Shown: in pieces, positions 7,264 to 63,002 of the stretch | Numbering within the stretch: position 1 is the first letter of the stretch | Layout: the number at the start of each line of letters is the position of its first letter | Assembly: GCF_004379255.2 (NCBI RefSeq) | Contig: NC_056041.1 | Location: 19,437,559-19,501,558, forward strand | Length of the DNA: 64,000 nt | Source: Salvia splendens | Lineage: Eukaryota > Streptophyta > Magnoliopsida > Lamiales > Lamiaceae | Direction of reading: 5' to 3' | Notes under the pieces: model-generated | The model's input: only the letters and a program-made list of their open reading frames with translations | Databases searched by the model: none | What the model was told of the DNA's origin: nothing | Program-made: the position numbers and the translations under genes

Positions 7264-8905
7264 TAAAATAGAGTATAAAAAATGAGATTTTGTGCTGTTT
7301 TATTTTACGAAATGACAAATGGATACAACATAAATAAAAGTTTCCTAAATTAACATCTAAGACATTTTTTTAAAGTTTTGTAATAGTTTGTGAATCCCGT
7401 AGCTAGATCTTTATGTATTTCATGAAAAATATGTTAAAATATTACTAGTAATATTTAGAATTTAAATTGTAATACTTCCTTAATATATATACAATTAGAA
7501 TTTTTTTTTTAAATGTTGAGATTTCAGTATCGTGTAGTATGAGTTTGAAAATGAGTATATCGGTTTAAAAAAATGAAATATGAGTAGATATGCAAAATAA
7601 TTGCGACAGCTAACAATAAATTGTAATCATAATTTCATTTCCTATATTATGATATCAAGATCTACGTTACTCCTAATATACATCCATGTGCATTAAAAAA
7701 AAGGAATATCCCAAAACATCATGTCCTTGTTTATCCAAGATGCAAAAACGGCTAAATCTTTACACTCGGAATTCACTCATTTATTCCCCAATTCTATGCA
7801 TGTAGTGTAGGCGATATATTTTAAGATGAAATACTCTGAATTTTACAAGTGTGATGCCACGCGCCAAATAGAGCGCGTGGGGGAGATAATTTCAGACACT
7901 CCTCACGTACATTGGTAATAGTGGACCCTACGCCCACCCCATCTCGAAATCTTGCCTTATTTTAAATTCATTTCCTTTTTTTTCCAATTTATTTTCAACA
8001 AAATTTCGATCTCATACTGCGACCGTGTTTGGATTTCTCCAACAGATTCAATTCAATCTTGGGAAGGGGCCTCTTCACTGCAGCATATATATATATATAT
8101 ATACAACTTATATATGTGTATGTAAGAAAAAAGCAGAGAGAGAAATAGTTGATTGACTAAAGTTGTGCGACTTCTGTGACTGTAAGTCAGCTCTCAACCT
8201 GCCAAGAAACCATTTTTAAATCGACATAAATTATTCAATTCGAGGAATAAGCGATTCTGAGAAATTGTATTTTTCTGCTTTTTTTGTAGTTTTTGATATT
8301 GCTTTGCTTTGCTTTGCTTCTACTGTGAAAGTCGCACTCAATTGGACATTTTTCACTTGTTTGGAGTTTTCACACAACCAAAAAGGTTGTCTTTTTATGC
8401 GTACTTTTTCCTCCTTTTCTTGTCTTGTTCAATATACTTCCCCCCCCCAAGATTTCAGATTTCAGAATCGGGGGAAAAAGCTTTTCATAAAGTGGTGCTT
8501 GATTAGAAATAAAAAAGATAAAGGGGGGTTTGTTTATAGATTCGATTGGAAAAGTCAGCCGTGTTTTTTAAATGTGAAATGAGGGGCCTTGAAACTTCGC
8601 TTTCGTCTGTATTTAGATAGTCAAAAACCTAGAAATTGTGAGCTTGATTAGGGTTTCAAGACAAAGTTTTGATCTTTATGTGTGAGGGAGCTCCGTTGTC
8701 ATCTACCAACCCCGTTTCGGTGTTCTTAAATTTTCTGGGGTTTTGGTTGGTGAATAAGTTCATGGGAGTTGGATTTTTGCGTGTCTTATAATAACTATTT
8801 ACTGCTCATAAACTCATTTATGGTTGAGGGCGATCGACTAGAAAGATGAGAGAGAAGCATTTTTTTTGAAATTTTTAGTAGTGAATTCCATTCCACCCTC
8901 TTTAG
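7264..8905 (+). promoter_or_regulatory. upstream region and probable 5' leader of the HD-Zip IV gene
   Basis: This interval separates the MITE from the start codon. It holds a (TA)n tract at about 8083-8102, then pyrimidine-rich and T-rich stretches typical of a plant 5' UTR or leader intron. No convincing L1-box (TAAATGYA) was seen in the stretch checked by eye. The transcription start is not determinable from sequence alone. Confidence 0.4.
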
Positions 8906-12940: not shown

Positions 12941-12962
12941 AAGACAATTAATATATCTCTCC

Positions 12963-13016
12963 GTCAGTTTATAATATATATATATATATACCTATATATA
13001 TATATTATAAACTGAC
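12963..13016. repeat. 54-bp AT palindrome capped by GTCAG/CTGAC
   Basis: GTCAGTTTATAA followed by (TA)n reads back as its own complement across a central CC. The capped ends show a true palindrome, not just a TA microsatellite. It could extrude as a cruciform or be a minimal foldback element. Confidence 0.8.
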
Positions 13017-13490
13017 AGGAAATTATTTTCAGATCAGTCGCAGATCCCAAACGTTGCAGAGCAGGAAATTCGTTTTTCGTATTGGCGTGTCTCCCTACAT
13101 TTTTATGGAAACATGATTGCCAGTTTATGATAATATGGGGGTTATGGTTCATTCATTCCCCTAGTGTTGTACAATCCTGGGGGCTAGGGGTTTAGTATAG
13201 TATGAGGCATTCCTTTAGTTTGTAGTTTTCGGCCTTACTTGGTTAATAGTTTAAACCGTCACAAATAATGCGCAAATTATAAATACATAATGGATGGTAT
13301 TGACTATATAACGCGAGTTAGAGCCATCCCTCTAGCGTGTAGTTTTCATATTGGCTTGGTAGTTGGATTAAATTATACATGTAATGTATAAGTATAACTG
13401 TATAATGCACAATATGTAATCAGTAATGTACAATATATGTCATATAATGCATTAGTACCGTTAACATGTATTGTTTTGTGGTTATATACA

Positions 13491-14488
13491 GTTAGCGTTG
13501 TGCCTGAATGCTCTGCGGAATTAAAGCCCGTTGTTGGTCAGAAGTTCCAATCATTAGATTTTACATTTGCGTTTTACGATGTATATGCCTGCGCTGTTGG
13601 TTTTGATACGCGCAAACAAGGGATGAGGAAGGTGGACGATGTTACAACGTGGTACTATGTCGTATGCAATAGGGAAGGCCAGAAGAAGTCGAATGACCAA
13701 TTGAATGAACGTTTTGGTTTCTCAATGAAGCGCCGACGGTTATCCAAGCGATGTGGTTGTAAAGCGAGTATATCATTCAAGTTCTTCTCTGAAGGAGGAC
13801 ATCCAGGTTATATAGTACAGGATTTCAATGAGGTTCAGAACCATGATATGGTTGAGTCAGAGCATCAGCATTTTATGTCAATTAATCGTCATTTGGATGA
13901 TGTTCATCAGAAATTCATACTTGATTGTTCAAAAGCGAATATTGGCCCCACACTTACATTTAAGGTGTTGAAAGAAACTCTCGGTGGGTTTGACCATGTC
14001 GGTTGTACGGTCGGTGATATCAGGAATGCTTCACGCGACATCAAAGCATACACACATGGATTCGATGTGCAAATGGTGTTGGATGGCATGGCTAAGAAGA
14101 AGGAAATGTCCGAGTCGTACACATATCACTACGAAGTTAATGATCACAACCAGTTGGTTGCTCTGTTTTGGTGTGACGGCTTGATGAAGAGGAATTACCA
14201 CATGTTTGGTGATATTGTAGCCTTTGACTCCACGTACAACACAAACAGGTACATACCTTTTGCATTATTATGTGCATTATAATGAGGTTTCCATACATTA
14301 CTACACGGTAATAGATGCATTATTCGCTTGTGATTATTCTAATAACGCATTAATTTGCGATTCGCAGGTATTGTATGATCTTCACTCCTTTCACGGGAAA
14401 GGACAATCATGGAAGACCTGTAACTTTTGTCGCTGGATTGGTGTGCAATGAGAAAACAAGGGCATTTGGCTGGTTGTTCAGACATTGC
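13491..14488 (+). pseudogene. FAR1/FHY3-like MULE transposase fragment
   Basis: Two exons are recognisable: about 13491-14248 and 14368-14488, joined by a GT-AG intron inside an Arg codon of the motif YNTNRY. The first half shows a FAR1-type zinc-finger domain (Cys in VCNREG, Cys in RCGC, His in QNHDM and EHQH). It is followed by the start of the MULE transposase fold (AFDSTYNTNRY, FTGKDNHGRPVTF). The frame stops abruptly near 14488, where the sequence changes to a segment coding on the other strand; most of the catalytic domain and the SWIM finger are missing. FAR1 relatives include both domesticated factors and mobile MULEs; the surrounding repeats favour a mobile element. Confidence 0.75.
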
Positions 14489-16762
14489 GCGGGCCATTTC
14501 TCCTTATCCAGCCTTGATTGAAATCGTCCACCCACGCCGAAATTGCGCGGGCCATCAGGGCGCTTGAAGCGATAAATTGATTTCGGAAACGATACGCCTT
14601 GTTCCGGCTTGGTGCTGCTCCCTCTCCTCTGGTATCTGATTCCAGCCTCCTTCCTTCCTCTTTCTGCAGCCATTTCTCCTTATCCAGGCTTGCCTCCAGC
14701 CTCCCAGTGCCGTATTGGCCATGCTCCACGTCCTCCCGTTGCTTCATGGTCTCTGCCGTCCAACCCTTGTTTGTTGGACAGGCACGGATTACCCGCCTCC
14801 GGCAGTGAACCACGCGGTCCACATAAGCACCCTGACAATAACAACCAAATAATTAAATAGAGCAGTAATATATATTAATGAAGACATAGAGCAGAATCAG
14901 TGGCAATATAAATCAAGCAATGAAAAACATTTATGAATTTTGTAGAAGGCAGTCAATGTAATGTAATTATTACAGCTATACAATGTACTCATACAACTGC
15001 ATAATGTAGGAAAATGAGCATATGATGCATTTATTAAAGCACTTACCACCAAAAAGTGGATAGGCCCGCTGAAATGCACGCTCTGGCGGTTTGCCCAGCT
15101 GGGGTACGTGGCCTCGAGCACGGACAGGAAGTAACCACACCAGTTTAGGTTCGTAATTTCATCGACATCTTCAATGAAATGCAGAATCTTGGGCTTGCAA
15201 TGGCCATCGGCTGGAGTCTCTATCAGTGCATTTTCAAGCATGAACATAAAAAGCTTCTTAAACTCCTCGCCCCCATCCACCTGCTGCATCATCAACTGGG
15301 CTATGTCCTTTGGTGTCATTTTAAAACGACCCTTCTGACAGCGAGCAGCAACTAGGTCGTTGAAAGCGAAGTTGCTTTGTTTATCCATTGGGCGTGCAAT
15401 GGGTGTTCGTCCTCGTGGACACCCCAACATCAGATGGACGTCTTCCTCATCGAGGTCTAGGCTTCCACCCCCCGATAACTCAATCTGGCAGCGAGATAGA
15501 TTAAACGCGCTCAGCACCGAGTATGCCAAGTACCCTGGAATCTCTTTGACATCAAAACACAAAATTGACGCAAATCCCAGTTTCGTGACGGCTTCCTTTT
15601 GCCGCGGAGTTAGACTCTTGATGCAAGTCAAAAACTCATAAGGGGCCGTCGACAATACAAATGACCCACCTTTCTACCCCTAGGTTTCCTGTCCTCAATC
15701 TCATCTGGAGCTGAACTAGTTCATGCTTCTGATAGGCGTTCGCGAAATTTATGCGCTATGCCCACCGGCAGAATATCATCGATAGCCTCGTCAATGTCTA
15801 TATGTAGCTGCTTCGACGCTGTACAACATAGAATTTAATAACATACATATTAGTTACATAATGTGTATACCCAAATCATGTACAGATTCAAGCTAGTTAT
15901 GAACATAAAAATATTTCATTCACTCTTTAACCCATGTACAACAGCAGACACTTGATGCATGAAACATGTATATAATGCATAGAAATAGTTAAATAATGTA
16001 CAGATTCATTGAAACAATTCACATATAAATATTGCATTCGCACTTTGAAGGCTTTACAAAAGCAGTCACATTATGTATAAAACATGGTAACTAATGCATT
16101 CAAACAGGCAAAATAATGGATTGAGTAAATCAAGTAATAAACATACAAATATTCCATTCACTCTTTGACCATATACAACAACAGTCACATGATGCAAGAA
16201 ACATGATATATAATGCACAGAAATAGTTACATAATGTACAAATACATTCAGGTAATGAACATACAGCCATTGCATTCACTCTTTGACCAATGTCCAACAT
16301 CAGTCACTTGATGCTTCTACCAGTGAACATAATGCATTCATATAGGCAAATAATGCACAGATTAAATCAAGTAATGAACATACAAATATTCCATTAACTC
16401 TTTGACCATATAAAACAACAGTTACATGATGCATGATACATGATATATAATGCATAAAAATAGTTACATAATGTACAGATCCATTTAAGTAATGAACACA
16501 CAAACATTGCATTCACTCATAGACCAATGTCCAACAGCAGACACATAATGGCTACATTAGGGTAATTAATGCATACAATTAGGTAAATAATATATATACT
16601 GATTTAAATAATGCGGGCATGAAATTTGATATAAACCCAATAAATCATCCACAGAATCAGTCCACTAGTCCAGGAATTCGACATGCAAATGAAATAGAAT
16701 GCTCACCCTCCGTTTGAGCTTGTTGTGCAGTTGAAGGACGCCCTCTTTTCGATATTTTTAAT
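14478..16762 (-). pseudogene. decayed gene resembling the N-terminus of plant Ulp1/mobile-domain transposon proteins
   Basis: Probable exons in transcript order: 16707-16762 (basic RGRPS stretch), about 15661-15818 (containing an in-frame TGA), 15047 to about 15655 (TPRQKEAVTKLGF, then EEDVHLMLGCPRG), and 14478-14831 (YVDRVVHCRRRV). Splice consensus is present at 15047/14831 and at 16707. The order of features matches the long N-terminal region of transposon-borne Ulp1 (C48) protease or plant-mobile-domain proteins as I recall them, but no protease triad is present. The internal stop and the abrupt end make it a pseudogene. Assignment is tentative. Confidence 0.5.
15900..16580. repeat. about six tandem copies of a 119-bp unit
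   Basis: A phrase like CATTCACTCTTTGACC recurs at about 15914, 16032, 16150, 16271, 16391 and 16508, a spacing of 117-121 bp. Alternate copies are more alike (16150 and 16391), giving a 241-bp dimer. Units are rich in ATAATGCA/ATAATGTA words that also occur near 13260-13480 and 17340-17380, so they probably belong to the same MULE-like block. They fall in a putative intron of the minus-strand gene. Confidence 0.8.
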
Positions 16763-17604
16763 CTGGGAAACGCACCAAAAAAACATAAGCCTATAAGATT
16801 TCATCTACAAAATCGGTCACCACACCTTTGTCACCCACAAATTAATTACACCATCAATGAAAGAGCCAAGCGTAACTAAAATGAATACAAAACAATTTTT
16901 AAACATAATATAGAAGAATACCCTTTTGAAAATATCCTCATTTATGGGCAAAAATTGGTGAATCGTCGTGTGTGTTGTGTGGTAGGGGTGAAAATCTGGG
17001 ATAAACGTTTGATGAAACCCAGAAAGTCAACCCATAAATTAATCTTCGACAAACCCTACCTCCTCGTCGACCGCAGAAAATGCTCTCACAAAACGGGAAG
17101 GGTTGTTGAATAGGGAATCAGACGACGTTCGAAGGTCCGTTGAGATGGACGGTACCTTGAATAGGCGGCTAGGGTTTTGAAATGGGTTGGAAATTGGGGA
17201 GACGAAGCTGGTAGAGAGATTGAGAGTAGATACGTTTGGAGTTAGAAATTGTAGAGTAGATGGAAGGTCGTGGGTATATCCCGCTAAAATCTCGCACATG
17301 CCGTTTTCGGGAGGTTTTGAGTATATACATTTACTAATTTACCCCGTTGATGCACGAAATGCACCAAATAATGCACAGACGGGATCCTAACTATGCTTCT
17401 AATCCGGATCGTCCATCCATCTAATCTAACGCTCCAAATGAAGAAGGAACTTAAATATAAGGGGAGAAAAGGAGATTAACACTCCCTCATATATATATCC
17501 CTTCCACTAAGCTTATTTCACTTTCTCTATTTGGCAATAAAATGACCTTTTGAAACTTAATTAACAATTACGGTCCTTCAAAATGTCATAATCACATAGT
17601 GGAA
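16763..17604. other. right end of the MULE-like block, no gene supported
   Basis: Contains the likely 5' side of the minus-strand gene and ATAATGCA-type subterminal words near 17340-17380. An open frame at 17039-17299 (minus) has no recognisable domain and is not called. Confidence 0.4.
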
Positions 17605-18109: not shown

Positions 18110-19284
18110 CTAACGGTTGCCAAATTTTACCCAAATGTGCTCCATTAGATCCTCCTGGAGTTGGGCGTGGGCCATAGAATCACGTGTCCTTTCCCAAACA
18201 TATATTCGCTCTTGCAAAGAAGGATGCACTCTACTGCGAGGCGGACTACTTGCAGAAGAGCTCCCCGCTGTTTCAGGGTCGAACCAATTTCCCGCATTAG
18301 GTCCTTCGTCGGCATTTTGTACAAGATTATGCACGTATACATGATGTCGACCATATTCTCCATAAACCACGTACGGGCCGGGGATTTGATAATGTTGAAT
18401 TGAGCTTGTTGAACCCCGAACTCTCTCTCCACATCCTTGCGAGCGGCTTCTTGCTTCTGCCCAAAAAGAGTCTGTTTTTCGTTTATCGGCCTGTTGAACG
18501 CCTTCACGAAGGTTGGCCACTTCGGATAGATGCAGTCGACAAGATAGTACCCCATTTTAAACTGGAGATTGTTAGCGGTGAAGTTGATGGACGGCGCTTT
18601 ACCATTCAAAACTTCGGTGAAGAGGTCGGATTGGTTGAGCACGTTGATATCGTTGTTCGTTCCGGAGACCCCAAAAAATGCTCGTGTATGATCCCCTCCA
18701 CGCCACAGGGCAATTCTTCCATTGCTAATGCATGCAATCGACGCTGCCAAGCATCCCGGGGAATCCGTGTGCTTGTTCGTGAAGTCGGAGCAGAAACTGA
18801 CAATCTGCGGTGCTTAGCTTCTTCAAGAATTCGTCGGTGAAGGCTGCCAGGACGCCTTTGCAGAAGTTCATCAAACACAGTCTCCCAGTGCTATCCCCAA
18901 TGTGCATGTACTCGTCGAACAAATCTGTCGTTTGTCCAGTAGCAAGCTGACGGATTGCTGCAGTACATTTCTGGAGCGTCGTGAGACTGGGACGGCCAGA
19001 AGCGTCGAACCCTTCTTGGAAGTACTCTTCACGGGCAGCCAATATATTTGTGATATGCAGAAATAGCTCCCGCCGCGTGCGTAAACGGCGACGGAAGTAG
19101 GTATCTCCCCATACCGGGTTCTCACAAAAGTAATCTCGTACTAACCTTGCGGCGGCTTCCTCCGGGTCACCATGGATGTATTTCTGGGTCGCTTTTGACG
19201 CGCCGTGACGGCCTCCTCCTCCCTACGTCGCTCTTCTTCTAGCGATTCTTCCATTATTCGATGCATTTGCTCAAATGGGTCCAT
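18110..19284 (-). pseudogene. Harbinger transposase (DDE_Tnp_4 type), broken
   Basis: Starts at an ATG (MDPFEQMHRI) about 115 nt after a TATAAATA box. Recognisable blocks: DYFCENPVWGDTYFRRR, a helix-turn-helix-like middle region, SVDCMH (first catalytic Asp), NNDINVL (second Asp) and KDVEREFGV (Glu). There is a frame change near the N-terminus. Near the first Asp there is a second frame change plus loss of about 20 residues, including the usual AVASxDLWIWH block. A third frame change precedes the C-terminus, which ends WVKFGNR. It cannot encode an active enzyme as read. It would have cut and pasted Harbinger ends with an ORF1 partner. Confidence 0.85.
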
Positions 19285-32924: not shown

Positions 32925-33302
32925 TGTTGAAATGTTTGGTGACTAATGATAGCAAGCTAACGAGCAAAGAAGTGAGGAAGAGACAACCGCAGCTAGAACG
33001 AAGATGAGCTGGCATTTATAGCAGTTGGAGTTAGTTACAAGATATTTTCAGTCGGTTAGGTTCTTAGTTAGCATGCTTGTAACGTAGTGTTTGCTTTGAT
33101 GCTGTTTTAGCTTCGAGTATAAATAGATCAGCTTAGTTTGTAAAGTCATAAGCTTGAGTATCAATAAAATTCTCTTTTCTCAATTTTCCTCTGTTTATAT
33201 CTCTGCATGAAGTTCATGCGTATTGCGTGTAGTTTTCTATAGTCTCTCTCGATTTGAATGTGTTGCTTGTTGTTTCTCATCTTCATATCTTCATCTTCTA
33301 CA
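32925..33302 (+). repeat. 3' LTR of the PORR-inserted copia
   Basis: 378 bp, the same length as the 5' LTR. The differences seen are single substitutions only (six). Confidence 0.95.
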
Positions 33303-34181
33303 CCGGAAGCAGTCACCCGGATCAGGAAGCTTCTCATGCTGTCGAACACAGGCCGGGTCAGGCTGGAGCACATCCGCATTGCGCGGAGGGAGTTTGGATT
33401 GCCGGATGATTTCGAATCGTCGGTTATTTTGAATCACCCCCAATTTTTCCGGTTGTTTGATGCTGATGAGACTAGGAATAAGTACATTGAGCTGGTGGAG
33501 AGGGACTGCACTCTCACTGTTTGTGAAATTGAGCGAGTGAGGGAAAGGGAATATCGGGAGAAAGGGGAGGACGCCGAGGAAATCCGGTTCTCGTTCCTCG
33601 TGAATTTCCCCCCGGGGTTCAAAATCGGGAAGTATTACAAGATCGCGATGTGGAAATGGCAGAGGCTGCCGTATTGGTCGCCCTACGAGGATGTGTCCGG
33701 GTACGACCTGCGGTCTTTAGAGGCGCAGCGGAGGATGGAGAAGAGGGCGGTGGCGATGATCCACGAGCTGCTGGCGCTGACGGTGGAGAAGAAGATGACG
33801 TTGGAGAGGATAGCACATTTTAGGATGACCATGGACTTGCCGAAGAAGCTGAAGGAGTTTGTGCTGCAGCAGCAGGGGATCTTCTACCTGTCGACGAGAG
33901 GGAACCACGGGAAGCTGCACACGGTGTTTCTGAAGGAGGCGTATAGGAAAGGGGAGCTGGTGGAGCCGAATGAGCTGTATCTGACGAGGAGGAAGCTGGC
34001 TGAGCTCGTGCTTGTCAGTCCGAGGAAAGCGCGGATGCAGCCTGAGTTGGCTAGCTATTGGAGGGACGGAGTGGATAATCACATGTGGGATGTCGGGAGG
34101 GATTTGGATGATGTGGTGGATGCTTCTTACTCAGATGAGGATGAAAGCTGTAGTGGAAGTGATATAGATGAATCTTGCTAA
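33303..34181 (+). pseudogene. PORR-domain protein, 3' half
   Basis: Open to the stop at 34179-34181 in the frame of EAVTRIRKLLMLSNTGR. Continues the PORR domain (LEHIRIARREFGLPDDF, HPQFFRLFD, NFPPGFKIGKYYKIAMWKWQRLPYWSPYED, KKLKEFVLQQQGIFYLSTRG, LVSPRKARMQPEL) and ends in an acidic tail. No internal stop is seen in this half. Removing the copia and one TSD copy would leave this half one base out of frame with the 5' half. Confidence 0.88.
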
Positions 34182-39920: not shown

Positions 39921-40329
39921 TAACAACTTTTTGTGCGGTGGATCTATTGAATAATTTGATACTAAGAGCATCCTCATCCGTGCTCTTGCCAAATAGCACG
40001 GATATGGGCCTGAACCCACTTTTATTACTTTTTTACTCTCTGCTATTAAGCAAGAGCACAACACCCACATTTATGCTCTTCCGCAAGGACATGCTCAAGG
40101 GTCCCACCATTCTATTATTCAATTTAAATAAAAACATTTCAACAATATTAAAATGCATTAAAAATATCCGGAATACTATTACAAATTAAAAAAAATTAAA
40201 AATTAAATAATTAAAATACTAAAAATTAAAAATTACATAATTAAAATACTAAAAATTTAAAATTACATAATTAATATCCTAAAAAATAAAAAATACATAA
40301 TTAAAGGCTAAAAATACCTCTGTAGAAAA

Positions 40330-47344: not shown

Positions 47345-49329
47345 TTGGGGTTGGTGCCGCCGGATGCGTAGTCTTCCTCGGGTTATATTAGCCAATAATT
47401 ATGTAATTTTTAATTTTTAGGAGTTTAATTATGTAATTTTTAATTTTTAGTATTTTAATTATGTAATTTTTAATTTTTAGGATTTTAATTATGTCTTTTT
47501 ATTTTATTTGTAATTTGTTATTTTTATTGTGGTTTTTTTAATGAATTTTAGTATTATGAAAATGTTTTTGTGTAATTGAATTTTATATTAATTGTGCTCG
47601 TCCTTGCGGAAGAGCACAGTTGTGGGTGTTGTGCTCTTGCCAGAGAGCAGGCATGAATAGTACCGCCCGGGCCCACAACCGTGCCACTGGCAAGAGCACG
47701 GTTGTGGATGCTCTTATATAGACTAAATAAAAGTCTAACTAACTAATAAAATGTCTAACTAATTACATTTGATTTTTCTAATTTCAACACTCCCCTCAAC
47801 ATAGAAGCAAAACAATTGCTGTCATCTTGACAACAAACATCAAACTACATAAGAAACATCGAAATGGTGTATCAAACTACAAAACTAATTCACACAAATT
47901 CCACGCATGGTTGAGGACCTGAGGTGGAGCAGCTTGTGATTGATCATCTTTCAAAAATTGATCTCAACTCCTCTTCCGCAGAAACTCCATCTTGAGCATC
48001 CAACTATAATGCATACTCCTCAATAAATTCCATACTAACTCCCCCTTAATAGTAGTCTCTTTCCAGAAATTCACACTACTAGCATATAACCAACACATTA
48101 TTTCTCTAAAGCTTCACAGATACATGACCTTTATTTCTCTAAAGCTTCACAGATACATGACCTTCAATCCTTGAGTAGGCTCATCACCTCTCTCCAAACG
48201 ATTAGATCAATCTCTACACAGGAAACCAATTACCAATGCTACACCAGGACTCTTGCAAAATTCACCTTGAACACAAACAAATGTCCTTCCAGAACATCAA
48301 TCAAGAGGCATCAAACAGAGCCAAGGCTCTGAGTATCACTCCTTACAAGCACATCAACCCTACCACCCTCACATCTCAATCTCAGAGACAAACGGTGACT
48401 CGATACCGAAGGCGGCAACAGCGCCGTGAAATGAAGACATTGCCGCCTACGAAAGTTCAATCGGCTGATATCTGCTACACAAATGCAATGTCGCCGCGAT
48501 GCCTAATTAAAACCTCTCCTTAGATGAGTTGTATACAACGAGGGGGCAAACAAAACTAAAAAATTCATCCGATACAATCGGAAAACAAAGACAAATCTGA
48601 AAACATATTCAGATTCAACAACAAATTTGAGAAAACATATTCTCAAAACGAAACACTCAACCGATTTTAATCGGAGAGATACAAACTTGGATCATACAAC
48701 AGACTTGGATCATATAAATTCAATGAACAAAGGAAAAACGAGAGAGAAAAGAGATTTGAGATTTCATCGGCGGAAATTAACGCTGAAGAGAGATAAAAAA
48801 ATGAGATGAATCCAATCGATAAAACCAGAGAATTTCAAACAAGAGAATCGACTGAAAATCAGAATTGAAGAAAAACAGATCGGAGAGAGAAGAGAACCTG
48901 ATGATTTTCGGATCGAAAATAGAGACATCCGAAAGAGGATAGAACCTAATGATTTTCGTAAAACTGCGGTAGAAAACAACAAATCCGCTTGATTAACACT
49001 CCGTAGAGCAAAAACCTCTCAAACATAAAAAATGACAAACCCTAGCTGGAAACCAAACAAAAAATTGAAAAAAAAATTAGAAGAGATAATGGTAATCAGA
49101 GGCGGGTAGCGGATTTGCGCTCTGATACCATATTAAAAATGAAGATTTCCATGGTAAAATTGAAGGAGGAAGGAGAAACTGCTCCTAAACCAGACTACCG
49201 TGAGAGACGAGAGGAAAGGAAGAATATGGAAATTTCTTTATTGACTACATTTTGCCAAAAGTGTTGCAGCAAATTTCAACACTGGCAATTTTTCTCTATG
49301 CAAATTATTAATTAATTTTGTTTGTGCAG

Positions 49330-56819: not shown

Positions 56820-56980
56820 GTGCGAAGTGTGTGTGTAGAGTGTGTATTTCGTGTAAAATTTGTAAGTGTGTGTAATGTGTGTACAATGTGTATATTTTGT
56901 GCAGTGTGTTTATTTTGTGTGCAATGTGTGTATTTTTTGTGTATAGTGTGTGTAGTATGTGAAGTGCATGTAGAGTGTGC
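56820..56980. repeat. GTGTGTAGTGTGT minisatellite, opposite orientation
   Basis: Irregular TGTGTGTAGTGTGTATTTTGTG repeats, inverted relative to the array at 56446-56690. Confidence 0.8.
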
Positions 56981-57172
56981 ATTGGCGGATCCAAGATTTT
57001 TGATTTAGGGATGCGATAAATAAATACAGTGACTCAGAACTTCAAAATCTGGCTTTAGTATAAATTATGATTAACATAATATACCTTAATACTTGAATTT
57101 AAAATATATAACACCTACGTAATGTTTGTTTTAGAGAAGAAAAATGTACAATTTACATAAATAGCATTATTG

Positions 57173-57174
<2 letters not shown>

Positions 57175-57229
<55 letters not shown>
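57175..57229. repeat. (TA)n tract 1
   Basis: About 27 TA units. It ends at AGGGTTTTGATC, the left end of alpha element copy 1. Confidence 0.95.
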
Positions 57230-57231
<2 letters not shown>

Positions 57232-57513
57232 TTTGATCTATGCAAAACTGGATTTAAATACAGAAACGCAGAACAATATCATAATTAGGGCACTTTTAGG
57301 TCATAATTAGGTAATTTGTAGGTCATGCTAACAAAGCATGACCTAAAACGATCTTAGTATGACATTAAATCCAAATATTATAATATGACCTAAAATTGCT
57401 TAATTATGACCTTCCGTGTTTTTGGTTAATTATTGACCATTAGATCATCTAATCCTAGGGCTGAGATTTGGTCTGCATTTCTAGATTTAAACACATACTT
57501 ATTTTGATCATCT

Positions 57514-57516
<3 letters not shown>
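57230..57516. mobile_element. (TA)n-flanked element alpha, copy 1 (287 bp)
   Basis: Begins GGGTTTTGATCTATGCAAAAC and ends GATCATCTCCC, with TA tracts on both sides. It contains several AGGTCAT/ATGACCT words that fold back on each other. Similar along its whole length (roughly three quarters by eye) to copy 2 at 59870-60153. Non-coding. Confidence 0.75.

Positions 57517-57591
<75 letters not shown>
57517..57591. repeat. (TA)n tract 2
   Basis: About 37 TA units between alpha copy 1 and element beta. Confidence 0.95.
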
Positions 57592-57593
<2 letters not shown>

Positions 57594-57784
57594 GTGCATT
57601 ATAATGATAACCCCAATTTCCGTAATAACCCTATAACCAAATCTGGACCACACATTTTTAAAATCACGTGGTTGATATTCAAACTTAGATTTACTTCATA
57701 AAAAAAAGCGCGGGGGTAAATATGTCATTTCGCTCATGATAAAATTTACGTATCCAAATTTCACTCATTTAATTTCTGAATTTC

Positions 57785-59500
57785 GCTCATTTTATCATTT
57801 TATCAGTCAGTCAAAAGTATCATTTTATCAACTCAGAGTATCATTCTATCCAGGAAAACTATCATTCTATGCAATAAACCTAACATATATCATTTTATCA
57901 GTCAGTCAAAACTATCATTTTATCAACTCAGAGTCTCATTCTATCCGGCAAAACTATCATTTTATCAGTTTTATGTCATTTTGTCACGTTAAAGTATCAT
58001 TTTATCAGCTTATATGCAATTTCTTCAGCTAAACTATCATTTTTATAAGGTTATTGTCATTTTATCCGCTTAGATTATCATTTTATCTAGGGCTGGCAAA
58101 TCATGCGGATTGGGTCGTTATCGGGTCAACCTGATAATGACCCAACCCAATAAGGCCTAACCTGAACCCGACCTGTTAAGGAAACTGTAAATCCGAACAC
58201 GAACCCGACCTGCTACCTTCAAATCCGAACACGACCCGCACCCGACACGAACCCGTTATCGACACGATATAATATGGGTTGACACGACACGATAACAACC
58301 CGAACCTGATATTACACGATTAAAACCTAATATTACACGATTAAACCTTAATTTTTAACCTAATTTACACAATTAAAATTCATTTTATACTATTTAAACC
58401 TAATTTATAAGAAATTAAAAAATTAAAGTAATATATATTTTTATAAATAATAATAAAAATAATAATATTATTTCTTAATGGGTTACCCGCATCCGACCCG
58501 CATCCGACCCGAACCCAACCCGAAATTATCGAGTTCTTAATGGGTCAACCCGATAAGGACACGGATCCAATAAGACTTGACCCCAACCCAATAATTTCGT
58601 GCGGATTCGTGTCAGATTATCGTGTCGTGTCGAAAATTGCCAGCCCTAATTTTATCAGGTAAAAGTATCATTTTATTAAACAAAAATGTCATTTTATACA
58701 CCAAAAATACCTATCATTCTATCGGCTGAAAGTATCATTCTACCTGGCAAAACTATCATTCTATCGGCTGAAAGTATCATTTTATCAACTCAGAGTATCA
58801 TTCTATCCGGAAAAACTATCATTTTTATAAGGTTTCTGTAATTTTATCCGCTTAGATTATCATTTTATCAGGTAAAATATCATTTTATTAAACAAAAATG
58901 TCATTTTATACACCAAAAATACCTATCATTCTATCGGCTGAAAGTGTCATTCTACCCGGCAAAACTATCATTCTATCGGCTGAAAGTATCATTCTATCCG
59001 GCAAAACTATCATTTTATGCAGTAAACCTAACATTTATAAGCTAAAAGTATCATTTTATCAACTCAAAGTATCATTCTATCCTGCAAAACTATCATTCTA
59101 TGCAATAAACCTATCATTTTATCATTTTATCAGTCGGTCAAAAGTATCATTTTATCAACTCAGAGTATCATTCTATCCGGCAAAACTATCATTCTATGAA
59201 ATAAACCTATCATTTTATCATTTTATCATTTTATCAGTCGGTCAAAAGTATCATTTTATCAACTCAGAGTATCATTCTATCCGGCAAAACAATCATTCTA
59301 TGCAATAAACCTATCATTTTATCCGTCAGTCAAAAGTGTCATTTTATCAACTCAGAGTATCATTCTATCCGGCAAAACTATCATTCTATGCAATAAACCT
59401 ATCATTTTATCATTCAGTTAAAAGTATCATTTTATCAACTCAGAGTATCATTCTATCCGGCAAAACTATCATTCTATGCAATAAACCTACCATTTTATCA
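57785..59500. repeat. minisatellite of TATCATTTTATC/TATCATTCTATCC words
   Basis: Higher-order unit about 90-100 bp: ATCATTTTATCAACTCAGAG, TATCATTCTATCCGGCAAAAC, TATCATTCTATGCAATAAACC, TATCATTTTATCAGTCGGTC. The + strand reads as a repetitive SFYQLRVSFYPAKLSFYAIN-type peptide, which is not taken as a protein. Confidence 0.88.
58088..58648. mobile_element. hAT-type MITE inside the minisatellite
   Basis: 561 bp with inverted ends TAGGGCTGGCAA / TTGCCAGCCCTA and a perfect 8-bp TSD ATTTTATC (58080-58087, 58649-58656). GACCCGAACCCG-rich subterminal blocks, as in the MITE at 19952. Confidence 0.93.
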
Positions 59501-59830
59501 TTTTACGTGATATTTGGCGAAATTCAGAAATTAAATGAGGGAAATGACAGTTTTACCCCCGCGCTTTTTTTTATGAAGTAAATCTAAGTTTGAATATCAA
59601 AACTATCATTCTATGGAATAAACCTATCATTTTATTATTTTATTATTTTATTATTTTACGTGATATTTGGCAAAATTCAGAAATTAAATGAGAGAAATGA
59701 CAGTTTTACCCCGTGCTTTTTTTTTATGAAGTAAATCTACGTTTGAATCTCAACCGCATGATTAGAAATATGTGTAGTCCAGATTTGGTTATAGGGTTAT
59801 TACGATATTTAGGGGTTATAATCTGATCAC

Positions 59831-59832
<2 letters not shown>

Positions 59833-59869
<37 letters not shown>
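59833..59869. repeat. (TA)n tract 3
   Basis: About 18 TA units between beta and alpha copy 2. Confidence 0.95.
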
Positions 59870-59873
<4 letters not shown>

Positions 59874-60153
59874 TTTGATCCATGCAAAACCATTCTTAAT
59901 ACAAAAATGCAGAACCAAGCATACAAAAGTCATTTTTAGGTCATTGTAAGCTTATTTTTACGTCATTATAGTAAGAATGACATGAAATGATCTTAACATG
60001 ACCTCAAACCCAAAGTTTATAATATGACCTAAAACTGCTTTACAATGACCCTCCGTGTTTTTGTTTAATTATTGACCATTGGATTGTCAAATCTCATGGT
60101 CAGGATTTGGTCTTGATTTTGTATTGAGATCAAGTTTTGTATTGATCATTTTC
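59870..60153. mobile_element. (TA)n-flanked element alpha, copy 2 (284 bp)
   Basis: GGGTTTTGATCCATGCAAAAC ... TGATCATTTTCC between TA tracts; the same family and orientation as copy 1. Confidence 0.78.
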
Positions 60154-60179
60154 CTATATATATATATATATATATATAT
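60154..60179. repeat. (TA)n tract 4
   Basis: About 13 TA units. Confidence 0.95.
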
Positions 60180-61628
60180 GATTGTATTCAATGTCGAACT
60201 AATTTTAAAGACCGAACTAGAGAACAAATCTCATTCACCCCTTATTTTAATCTAACGGTTATTTCATTATCAATTAAATCTAATTTTTTTTATTTAATTA
60301 AACTTGCAAAAGGGTTGTTTAGGAACTCTAAAATTGTAGCGGTTATTTGGTTACCTTAATTCATGCAACTTAATCATGGAAAATATATCAGCATCTTTTT
60401 TTTTGTGATTCACAATTTTTTTGAAATTGAATCTGTTAATATACTCAATCTCAATCTTCAATCAATTCCATTCAATCACAATCTTCAACTATCGTCTCTA
60501 CTTGTTCTTTTTATTTGTTATACTTTGATTTGGTTGTATGGATTCTTCAGGCACTGTCTCGAGGTCAGTCTCGGGTTGAAATTCACCCGCAACTCGGCCC
60601 CAATGTATTGTGCCACCGCCGCCACTGCTATAATGTCGTCGTTCAATCACTTCATCTTATAATTACTGTACTTCATCTTATAATGAAATAACTTCATCCG
60701 AGAAATGGAAACATGTCGGTTAAATGAATCAAATTTTAATAGTCCAAAACAAATAACTTCATCTTATGATATAATTTCTTCATCTTTTTAAGAAATGACT
60801 TCATCTTATAATGTAATTAATTCACGGTATATAGTTAAAATGAACCATCAAATAAATCGAAACTCAAATCTTGAAAATCAACTCTCCACAAAATACACTA
60901 AAAATGAATCGAAATTAGAAATTAAGGTATGCAATCACTTCATGTGGTGAGTTGAATTTCAAGATTTTGAGTATCGATTTGTTTGATGGTTCATTTTAAC
61001 TATATACCGTGAATTAATTACATTATAAGATGAAGTCATTTCGTAAACAGATGAAGAAATTATATCATAAGATGAAGTTATTTGTTTTGGACTGTTAAAA
61101 TTTGGTTCATTTAACCGACATGTTTCCATTTCTCGGATGAAGTTATTTCATTATAAGATGAAGTACAGTAATTATAAGATGAAGTGATTGCACGGCTAAA
61201 GTCAAAAAGGGCTAATATTAATATTCAAGTTTAATATAGACATTTTATCGAACAGTTTATGTCCCCATGGTAATGTTTGTCGATAGAATCACAAAATTAC
61301 TCAGTAGATAATTAGAATTCATATAATTTTTAATTGGTGTTTGATTCCAAACAAAATCTTGAAACAGATTTGAAATCAAACTAAATAAACTATCACGTGC
61401 GTGAAATCAAACTAAATAAACTATCCATTGATTTACTCTAAATTCATTTTTACCCAATTACACTCATTTACAGAATGACTAAGATGCCCTTTGGCTGAAC
61501 AATTTAATTCACAGGATGAATTACGAATTTAAGATGTAGGAGCTCTAATCTCAACCACTAAATTAAAATCCATTGGCTAAAATTTAGTCTCTAGTTCTAC
61601 ACTAATAATGTGTTGTGGGAATAAGGGG

Positions 61629-61631
<3 letters not shown>
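60180..61631. mobile_element. (TA)n-flanked element gamma-1 with long hairpin
   Basis: 1452 bp. Its left ~55 bp (TTCAATGTCGAACTAATTTT, then AAAGACCGAACTAGAGA) nearly match the left end of the next element at 61681. The right end carries a related inverted AACTAGAGACTAAATTTTAG phrase. It contains a 241-bp inverted repeat. No coding region. Confidence 0.7.
60644..61190. repeat. near-perfect inverted repeat: 241-bp arms, 64-nt loop
   Basis: Arms 60644-60884 and 60949-61190 differ at about eight positions by eye (about 97% identity). Arms are rich in ACTTCATCTTATAAT words. A transcript would fold into a long double-stranded RNA, like natural hairpin RNA loci that feed DICER-LIKE enzymes; expression is unknown. 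Confidence 0.93.

Positions 61632-61680
<49 letters not shown>
61632..61680. repeat. (TA)n tract 5
   Basis: About 24 TA units. Confidence 0.95.
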
Positions 61681-61683
<3 letters not shown>

Positions 61684-62424
61684 GTGATCAATGTCGAACC
61701 AATTTTAAAGACCGAACTAGAGACCAAATCTGGGCCATTAGATCTAATTTTTTTATGAGATGTGTTGTTGTGTAAATTTTTCGGTCTTCATTACAAGCAC
61801 ATTTTACTTCATTGTATAGGTTTATTACTTCATTCCGTACGTAATACCTTGAAACTACAACATGTTTTTACTTTCTTCCAGTAGGTTTTGAAATGATTCA
61901 ACATATGTTTCATTTGAATTCATTGACCTGAGTTTTTACTTTATTTACATTAAAAAATGCAATTTAGTCAAGTGCATTTATTACTTCATTCAGAAACGTT
62001 ATTACTTCATTGGATAAGGTTTTTACTTCATTCCAGTAGGACTTCAAATGCTTCTACACATACTTCATTCCAATAATTTATTACATCATTCCATGTGTTT
62101 ATTACACCATATCAGCGTTGTGGCGGTGGTGATAGATATTGTAGAGAGAAAGAACGGCACGCGACGGCGAAACCGCATTTACGTACTGGAATGAAGTAAT
62201 AATCCTACTGGAATGAATTAAAAACCTACTGGAATGAAGTTAAATCTTCGTAACATGTTAGTATGACTTATTTACATTCGGATGAATTAAAATAGGCCCG
62301 TGATGAAGGCGAAAATAATTGATAAATTTGTGTCTCTCATCCATAAAAAACTAGATCCAAAAACCCTAATTTGGTATGGTTCGGTGGTTCGGTCTTTAAG
62401 AGTGGATTTGTGAATAATGGGACT
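61681..62424. mobile_element. (TA)n-flanked element gamma-2 (744 bp)
   Basis: Begins GTTGTGATCAATGTCGAACC with CTTTAAAGACCGAAC-like words at both ends in inverted orientation (the right end contains GTTCGGTCTTTAAG). The interior repeats TTACTTCATTCCAGTAGG and its complement CCTACTGGAATGAAG. TA tracts lie on both sides. Non-coding. Confidence 0.72.
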
Positions 62425-62425
62425 C

Positions 62426-62458
<33 letters not shown>
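62425..62458. repeat. (TA)n tract 6
   Basis: TA repeats with one GTATATATGT interruption. Followed by GGTTGCGTTAAAGATAGAACC, which looks like the left end of a further related element whose right end was not found. Confidence 0.85.
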
Positions 62459-63002
62459 GTGGTTGCGTTAAAGATAGAACCATTCTTAAGTGTAGAACCT
62501 AGAACTCTACATATTTTATTCATTGGATGAGGAAAAAATGACGGTCAAGATTAAAAATCATACATATTAGACTATGTTTTCACGACATTCCGGACTCAAC
62601 ATGTGAAAAAACTCACATGTTGATGGAAGAATGAATGAAACGAAGATATGTGTCAATTTACTACAATTTTTAAAGATAAAAGTTAAACAGCTTCATTTAA
62701 AATGTGTAATACGAAGACTAGTGTAAGGTTTATTTATTGTGTAGAAGAATACATATGTTGTCAATAAACTGAGTACAATATTGTACGAAAAAAATAAATT
62801 TATTGTGTAGAAGAATACATATGTTGTCAATAAACTGAGTACAATATTGTACGAAAAAAATAAATCGAACACAAGCACCAAGAAACAAATATGAGATGGA
62901 TTACCTACAGCATTACTTTGTAGTGAATACATCTTAATATATAACTAGAACGAAATTTGGGGATACAGCGGTACCCCTTGTTCCAATGTGGCTCCGCCTC
63001 TG
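62459..63002. other. possible further element of the TA-flanked group; no gene
   Basis: Starts with an AAAGATAGAACCATTC phrase like the other TA-flanked ends. A 69-bp segment (ATTTATTGTGTAGAAGAATACATATGTTG...) is tandemly duplicated at about 62730-62865. Confidence 0.45.

Follow-up and report, generated by a model that had tools for sequence, protein, structure and literature searches.

A non-nested array of (TA)n-linked, probably Mutator-like elements with similar termini in Salvia splendens

The array and its (TA)n tracts

Here we describe an array of (TA)n-linked elements in Salvia splendens, located within a 64,000-nucleotide stretch of contig NC_056041.1 (assembly GCF_004379255.2, positions 19,437,559 to 19,501,558 of the forward strand), which is the whole of the DNA analysed and is referred to below as the window. 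The array begins at window position 57228 and consists of five bounded elements and a one-ended sixth piece, joined solely by pure (TA)n of 25-75 bp and arranged in the order alpha-beta-alpha-gamma-gamma-delta. The segments between tracts measure 289, 2242, 285, 1453 and 745 bp and are followed by the sixth piece, which has a left end only. An earlier reading of the letters alone (the original prediction) had proposed five segments and a sixth partial piece split only by TA tracts, and this description holds, with each length 1-2 bp above the earlier figure. The tracts and elements are as follows, with strand given where one was assigned (TIR, terminal inverted repeat).

57175..57227, (TA)n tract 1, 53 bp; the array's left boundary
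57228..57516, + strand, alpha1, 289 bp; GGG...CCC termini, internal inverted repeats and weak ~21/22-bp repeats
57517..57591, (TA)n tract 2, 75 bp
57592..59833, + strand, beta, 2242 bp with its nested insert counted; TIRs, body of 21-bp repeats
59834..59869, (TA)n tract 3, 36 bp
59870..60154, + strand, alpha2, 285 bp; same orientation as alpha1
60155..60179, (TA)n tract 4, 25 bp
60180..61632, + strand, gamma1, 1453 bp; holds a fold-back made of 21-bp repeats
61633..61680, (TA)n tract 5, 48 bp
61681..62425, + strand, gamma2, 745 bp; 21-bp repeats in inverted sets
62426..62458, (TA)n tract 6; pure over 62426-62450 (25 bp), then G-interrupted and imperfect to ~62458
62459..62900, + strand, delta; left end fits the common terminal sequence described below, right limit arbitrary

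The array is real and not a product of chance. Pure TA tracts of at least 10 bp number ten in the window; those of at least 25 bp are the array's six alone, and the other four are at most 19 bp long. Under a first-order Markov model built from the remaining sequence, no TA tract of at least 12 bp arose in 50 simulated sequences of 64 kb, and the chance that six uniformly placed tracts would all land inside a single 5.3-kb stretch is very roughly 2e-5; both results bear out the earlier claim that the clustering lies far beyond chance. Furthermore, (TA)n stands at both ends of all five bounded elements and at delta's single end. Within this one array, no element interrupts another, the insert nested in beta being a hAT-like element with its own 8-bp target-site duplication (TSD). 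The boundary reads TATA followed by G at 8 of 10 element boundaries, and the terminal bases adjoining TA differ between elements (GGG, GA, GT).

The family relationships that had been proposed for the members also stand. The two alphas, 74% identical over 290 columns, are indeed copies of one family; the two gammas have left ends in common, alike at 46 of 50 bp (92%) from 2-3 bases inside those ends and little beyond; and beta does carry long TIRs, though imperfect ones (134 of 165 aligned columns). Left and right ends match over 236 columns at 62% in gamma2 and at 34 of 49 positions in gamma1, which additionally contains a 555-bp fold-back (60640-61194) that is 91% self-complementary. The strongest left-right match of alpha is internal, and delta offers one end only. 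Both alphas and both gammas lie in the same orientation, and TA tracts are generally known to be recombination-prone, as would suit an origin of the array by segmental or tandem duplication with recombination between TA tracts in place of separate transpositions. However, the alpha copies are only 74% alike, the gammas have ~50 bp in common, and no repeated unit yields the order alpha-beta-alpha-gamma-gamma-delta; we regard such an origin as highly improbable.

Terminal sequences across the families

When the 11 element ends, each read inward, were aligned with MAFFT, they fell into a single register (alignment A1) with a mean column identity of 55% and three invariant columns. Pairwise comparison of ends belonging to different families gave p<0.05 in 27 of 42 pairs and p<0.01 in 19 of 42, with 90-mers taken from the window's first 56.4 kb as background; such pairs are not independent of one another, and delta's end was set 11 bp further inward for this scoring than in the remaining end analyses.

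The ends of a family can also be found from those of the others. In a leave-one-family-out procedure, a profile trained on the other families was used to search both strands of the 64-kb window, a match within 8 bp of the expected position being counted as in register. This recovered 9 of the 11 held-out ends, in register and on the expected strand, with an E-value of 2.5 or lower, and a tenth once the limit was raised to E<=16; single E-values near 1 are weak, and the strength of the result lies in register, strand and joint ranking. For example, with alpha held out, its four ends were the top four non-training matches (E 0.045-0.79); with gamma held out, its left ends ranked 1 and 2 (E 0.00013 and 0.0018); and with delta held out, its left end ranked first (E 0.021). 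The same procedure recovered none of 220 random-position ends and none of 11 stretches lying 95 bp further inside the same elements, which places the likeness, as far as sequence comparison goes, at the ends and not in the tested interior stretches. A profile of all ends had no match beside the other TA tracts of the window (8085-8103, 12974-13005, 17489-17498) among the 22 matches listed, nor was a right end of delta among them. To the right of delta's end lies a perfect 66-bp tandem duplication (62732-62863) with an internal palindrome, GTACAATATTGTAC.

By these comparisons, alpha, gamma, delta and, more weakly, beta carry a common terminal sequence in register, unlike their interiors. That the ends are alike in register while the insides are unlike suggests one inserting machinery, and the families look like differing cargoes held between one end type and probably moved by one transposase. 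The original prediction had supposed that the families form one superfamily or use one enzyme; the common ends favour this well for alpha, gamma and delta, and only weakly for beta. It had also left unexplained how distinct families share one target, to which the likeness of ends across families gives a partial answer.

Insertion into (TA)n, competing explanations and neighbouring features

Starting from the non-nested array, its TA tracts and the common ends, all of them observed, we infer an enzyme, a targeting step and a Mutator identity: the locus is likely a pile-up of non-autonomous and probably Mutator-like elements of the SaTar/MiM type, each inserted in turn into (TA)n inside an older element. 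One transposase family would recognise a common terminal sequence of ~60-80 bp regardless of the element interior and would deliver the element to (TA)n. Each insertion would leave a TA repeat on either side, slippage would lengthen the TA tracts, and the next element would enter a tract beside its predecessor instead of the predecessor's own sequence; different families would then be different interiors between one end type. That elements insert into (TA)n and that their flanks become the next target had been proposed from the letters alone; published arrays back this, and it fits the present one. If this account is true, counting families by their interiors makes independent (TA)n-targeting lineages look more numerous than they are, and the end sequence common to the families offers a handle for finding a transposase carried by an element with the same ends.

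Several observations weigh against successive transposase-driven insertion of elements with a common end. Among the cross-family end pairs, 15 of 42 miss p=0.05. With gamma held out, its right ends were weak (gamma2 E=1.3, rank 6; gamma1 E=16, rank 15), and with beta held out, its left end reached E=2.5 at rank 2 and its right end was missed; moreover, the random-position control was not matched to the base composition near TA tracts. Long high-identity TIRs are not shown by alpha or gamma. The raw flank phase implies an even duplication length in three of the five bounded elements and an odd one in two, in a setting where a duplication of the length expected of Mutator-like elements (8-11 bp, mostly 9-10 bp) is unreadable inside (TA)n. 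A coding partner with the array ends was not found, the comparison covering the right end of the window's FAR1 relic (described below), and the pineapple elements discussed in the last section are likewise without a coding partner (PMC8449440). Finally, the microsatellites that flank comparable guayule elements are often non-TA, unlike what a TA-specific enzyme would leave (PMC5907723).

The flanks bear most directly on homologous recombination, in which circular copies with TA filler would recombine with genomic (TA)n; the common ends would then serve excision only, and the TA repeat itself would be the address. Such a mechanism has been put forward for the guayule SaTars on the basis of flanks unfit for cut-and-paste and of non-TA microsatellite flanks (PMC5907723), and here the odd-phase flanks of two of the five elements and the variable terminal bases agree with it. 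It would also account for the absence of array elements interrupting each other. However, odd phases may also arise from variable terminal bases, and recombination needs no common ends across families, yet these are present; we therefore consider it fairly unlikely as the origin of the array.

The even phases, three of five in the raw flanks, are those expected of Tc1/mariner or PIF/Harbinger-like elements that make a 2-bp TA or other even duplication, in which case the flanking TA would have expanded later and would be a consequence of insertion, not its target. Indeed, TA tracts lengthen after insertion in a maize case cited in PMC5907723, and occupied sites in Medicago hold more TA than empty ones (PMC4486113). 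Against this, we would argue that insertion at any TA should hit the interiors of neighbours too, but the array elements join end to end; furthermore, elements of the same layout in Medicago, rice and guayule have been assigned to Mutator-like elements (MULEs). Later TA expansion around such elements thus seems to us quite improbable. Termini of the Stowaway type (CTCCCTCC) do not occur at the array ends, where a TA duplication would be inseparable from (TA)n.

Inside the elements, 21 bp is the top autocorrelation period in each of beta's two parts, in the first arm of gamma1 and in gamma2, with leading periods of 42 and then 21 in the second arm of gamma1; the 21-bp period is weak in alpha and negative in delta. 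It also leads in repeats that the FAR1 relic contains near 16 kb. As a background control, a top lag of 20-22 bp with z>=4 was found in 6 of 226 overlapping scan windows, three of them in the FAR1 relic. On the + strand of beta, TCAT cores are often 20-22 bp apart (35 of the 91 spacings that do not exceed 45 bp), a count made without a control. A single common 21-bp unit was rejected: when the consensus units of the FAR1 relic and of alpha, beta, gamma1 and gamma2 were compared cyclically, all ten pairs gave p>=0.149; since the unit sequences are not significantly alike, only the period is common.

A bolder reading, which we put forward as a tentative possibility, is that the terminal sequence of ~60-80 bp serves as the address label of this genome's (TA)n families. 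Whatever two copies enclose would go to (TA)n, the interiors would be freely exchanged cargo, and the 21-bp repeats, at two helical turns per unit, would be serial protein-binding sites that evolved several times over from unlike units. Should this be true, how such elements find microsatellites would become directly testable.

The following relic is the feature of the window that was considered as a coding partner.

13200-17490, decayed FAR1-type transposase relic with a FAR1 DNA-binding domain

An open reading frame (ORF) within it, 13437-14282, matches a FAR1-related protein of Salvia splendens at 100% identity along 94% of the ORF. The relic further shows a sub-threshold match to the beginning of an RNaseH-like domain and, from the other strand, a weak match to a plant-mobile domain (E 0.059); 21-bp ATAATGCA-type repeats occupy 15873-16591. 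As a coding partner the relic was rejected: its right end (17488, beside the TA tract at 17489) falls below p=0.05 with one of the 11 array ends (gamma1 left, p=0.015). No clear left end was found for the relic, the best inverted match scoring 20 against a shuffled mean of 16 and maximum of 23. Because its right end is without a match to the array ends, we claim a likeness of the array elements to MULEs and not membership. Pattern scans of viral and prokaryote contigs for copies elsewhere returned no matches, nor did blastn of gamma2 against plasmids; these are non-plant collections and uninformative on spread.

Upstream of the relic lies a short hairpin (12961-13019) with TA-rich arms (CCGTCAGTTTATA...TATAAACTGACAGG). 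A minus-strand ORF at 18725-19222 has a sub-threshold Plant_tran match (PF04827, E 0.0028) and is probably a relic of a PIF/Harbinger-type transposase.

Two hAT-like elements lie in and around the array, neither with a strand assigned.

58088..58648, insertion nested in beta; ends TAGGGCTGGCAA, 8-bp TSD ATTTTATC at 58080-58087 and 58649-58656
56980..63002, probable outer host element enclosing the entire array; imperfect TIR CATTGGCGGATCCA / CAGAGGCGGAGCCA, GGCGGA(G/T)CCA ends

The nested insertion is not a (TA)n element and contains ACCCG-type repeats; we take it to be hAT-like from its TSD length and TIR style. The outer element is itself bordered on both sides by GTGTGTAG-type repeats, which explains its weak TSD, and is probably an older hAT-like element that contains the array.

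Elsewhere in the window, a PORR-domain ORF (33258-34181) matches a protein of Salvia splendens at 99% identity across 95%; together with the FAR1 ORF it marks the window as most likely nuclear DNA of this species. Two tandem repeats of a 30-bp unit (40191-40305 and 47396-47526), ~7 kb apart and apparently mutual reverse complements, enclose ORFs with weak DUF6818 and NAM-associated matches; the two repeats are possibly the ends of another DNA transposon.

Comparison with published (TA)n-associated elements

The array is another instance of an already known type, the non-nested SaTar arrays in which non-autonomous Mutator-like elements occupy (TA)n. The suggestion that such elements might be undescribed is not supported, given that (TA)n-linked, non-nested arrays of several families have been published (PMC5907723, PMC8449440). 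SaTar arrays of unrelated-looking families, non-nested and (TA)n-linked, occur in guayule, rice, sorghum and citrus, and guayule has 15 microsatellite-associated families in multimeric, never-nested arrays (PMC5907723). Their assignment to MULEs draws on 10-bp duplications, which 11 of the 15 guayule families show outside microsatellites, and on TIRs in common with coding elements in guayule and rice, and the rice Micron family, too, has been reassigned to Mutator-like elements (PMC5907723). Like the SaTars, the Salvia elements comprise several non-autonomous families (233 bp to 1.9 kb there) in a linear, non-nested array with microsatellite joints, often (TA)n; the 10-bp duplications and the coding MULE partners that have the TIRs of some families have been shown for the SaTars, to which our elements are likened by layout (PMC5907723). 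For published arrays of the same layout generally, the Mutator-like assignment follows from 9-10-bp duplications at non-TA sites (PMC5907723, PMC8449440).

The MuTAnT and AutoMuTAnT elements of Medicago resemble those described here in targeting (TA)n, in having G-rich termini that vary in length and TIRs made of repeated modules, and in a fold-back form; a coding element and 9-nt duplications are known from Medicago, and the consulted portions of that account contain no description of multi-family arrays such as the present one (PMC4486113). Residence in (TA)n is likewise common to rice Micron, maize TAFT and the carrot MiMs (PMC8227079), to which our elements are likened by description. In carrot, 15 families account for over 2000 copies within TA stretches, and the carrot study calls it unclear whether Mutator drives (TA)n elements and how copies reach TA repeats (PMC8227079).

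A survey of 207 plant genomes found Micron-type miniature inverted-repeat transposable elements (MITEs) to be widespread in Poaceae and Rosaceae and absent elsewhere save for a few species, exceptions that the Salvia case would join (PMC12550479). Salvia goes unmentioned in the main text of that survey, and no literature on (TA)n arrays in Salvia appeared among the matches listed; a literature search with the end and repeat letters likewise gave nothing related by title among the matches listed.

A parallel for ends in common is the pineapple Ac-mMITE group, in which 46.1% of full-length copies lie in clusters (PMC8449440). As in the Salvia array, these clusters are non-nested and linked by dinucleotide microsatellites, and two families there have the distal part of their TIRs in common. 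Unlike the pineapple case, with its two families and thousands of copies, the common end here spans alpha, gamma, delta and, weakly, beta (PMC8449440). The array type itself is thus already known, and what is new in Salvia splendens is one terminal sequence extending over elements that otherwise look different.

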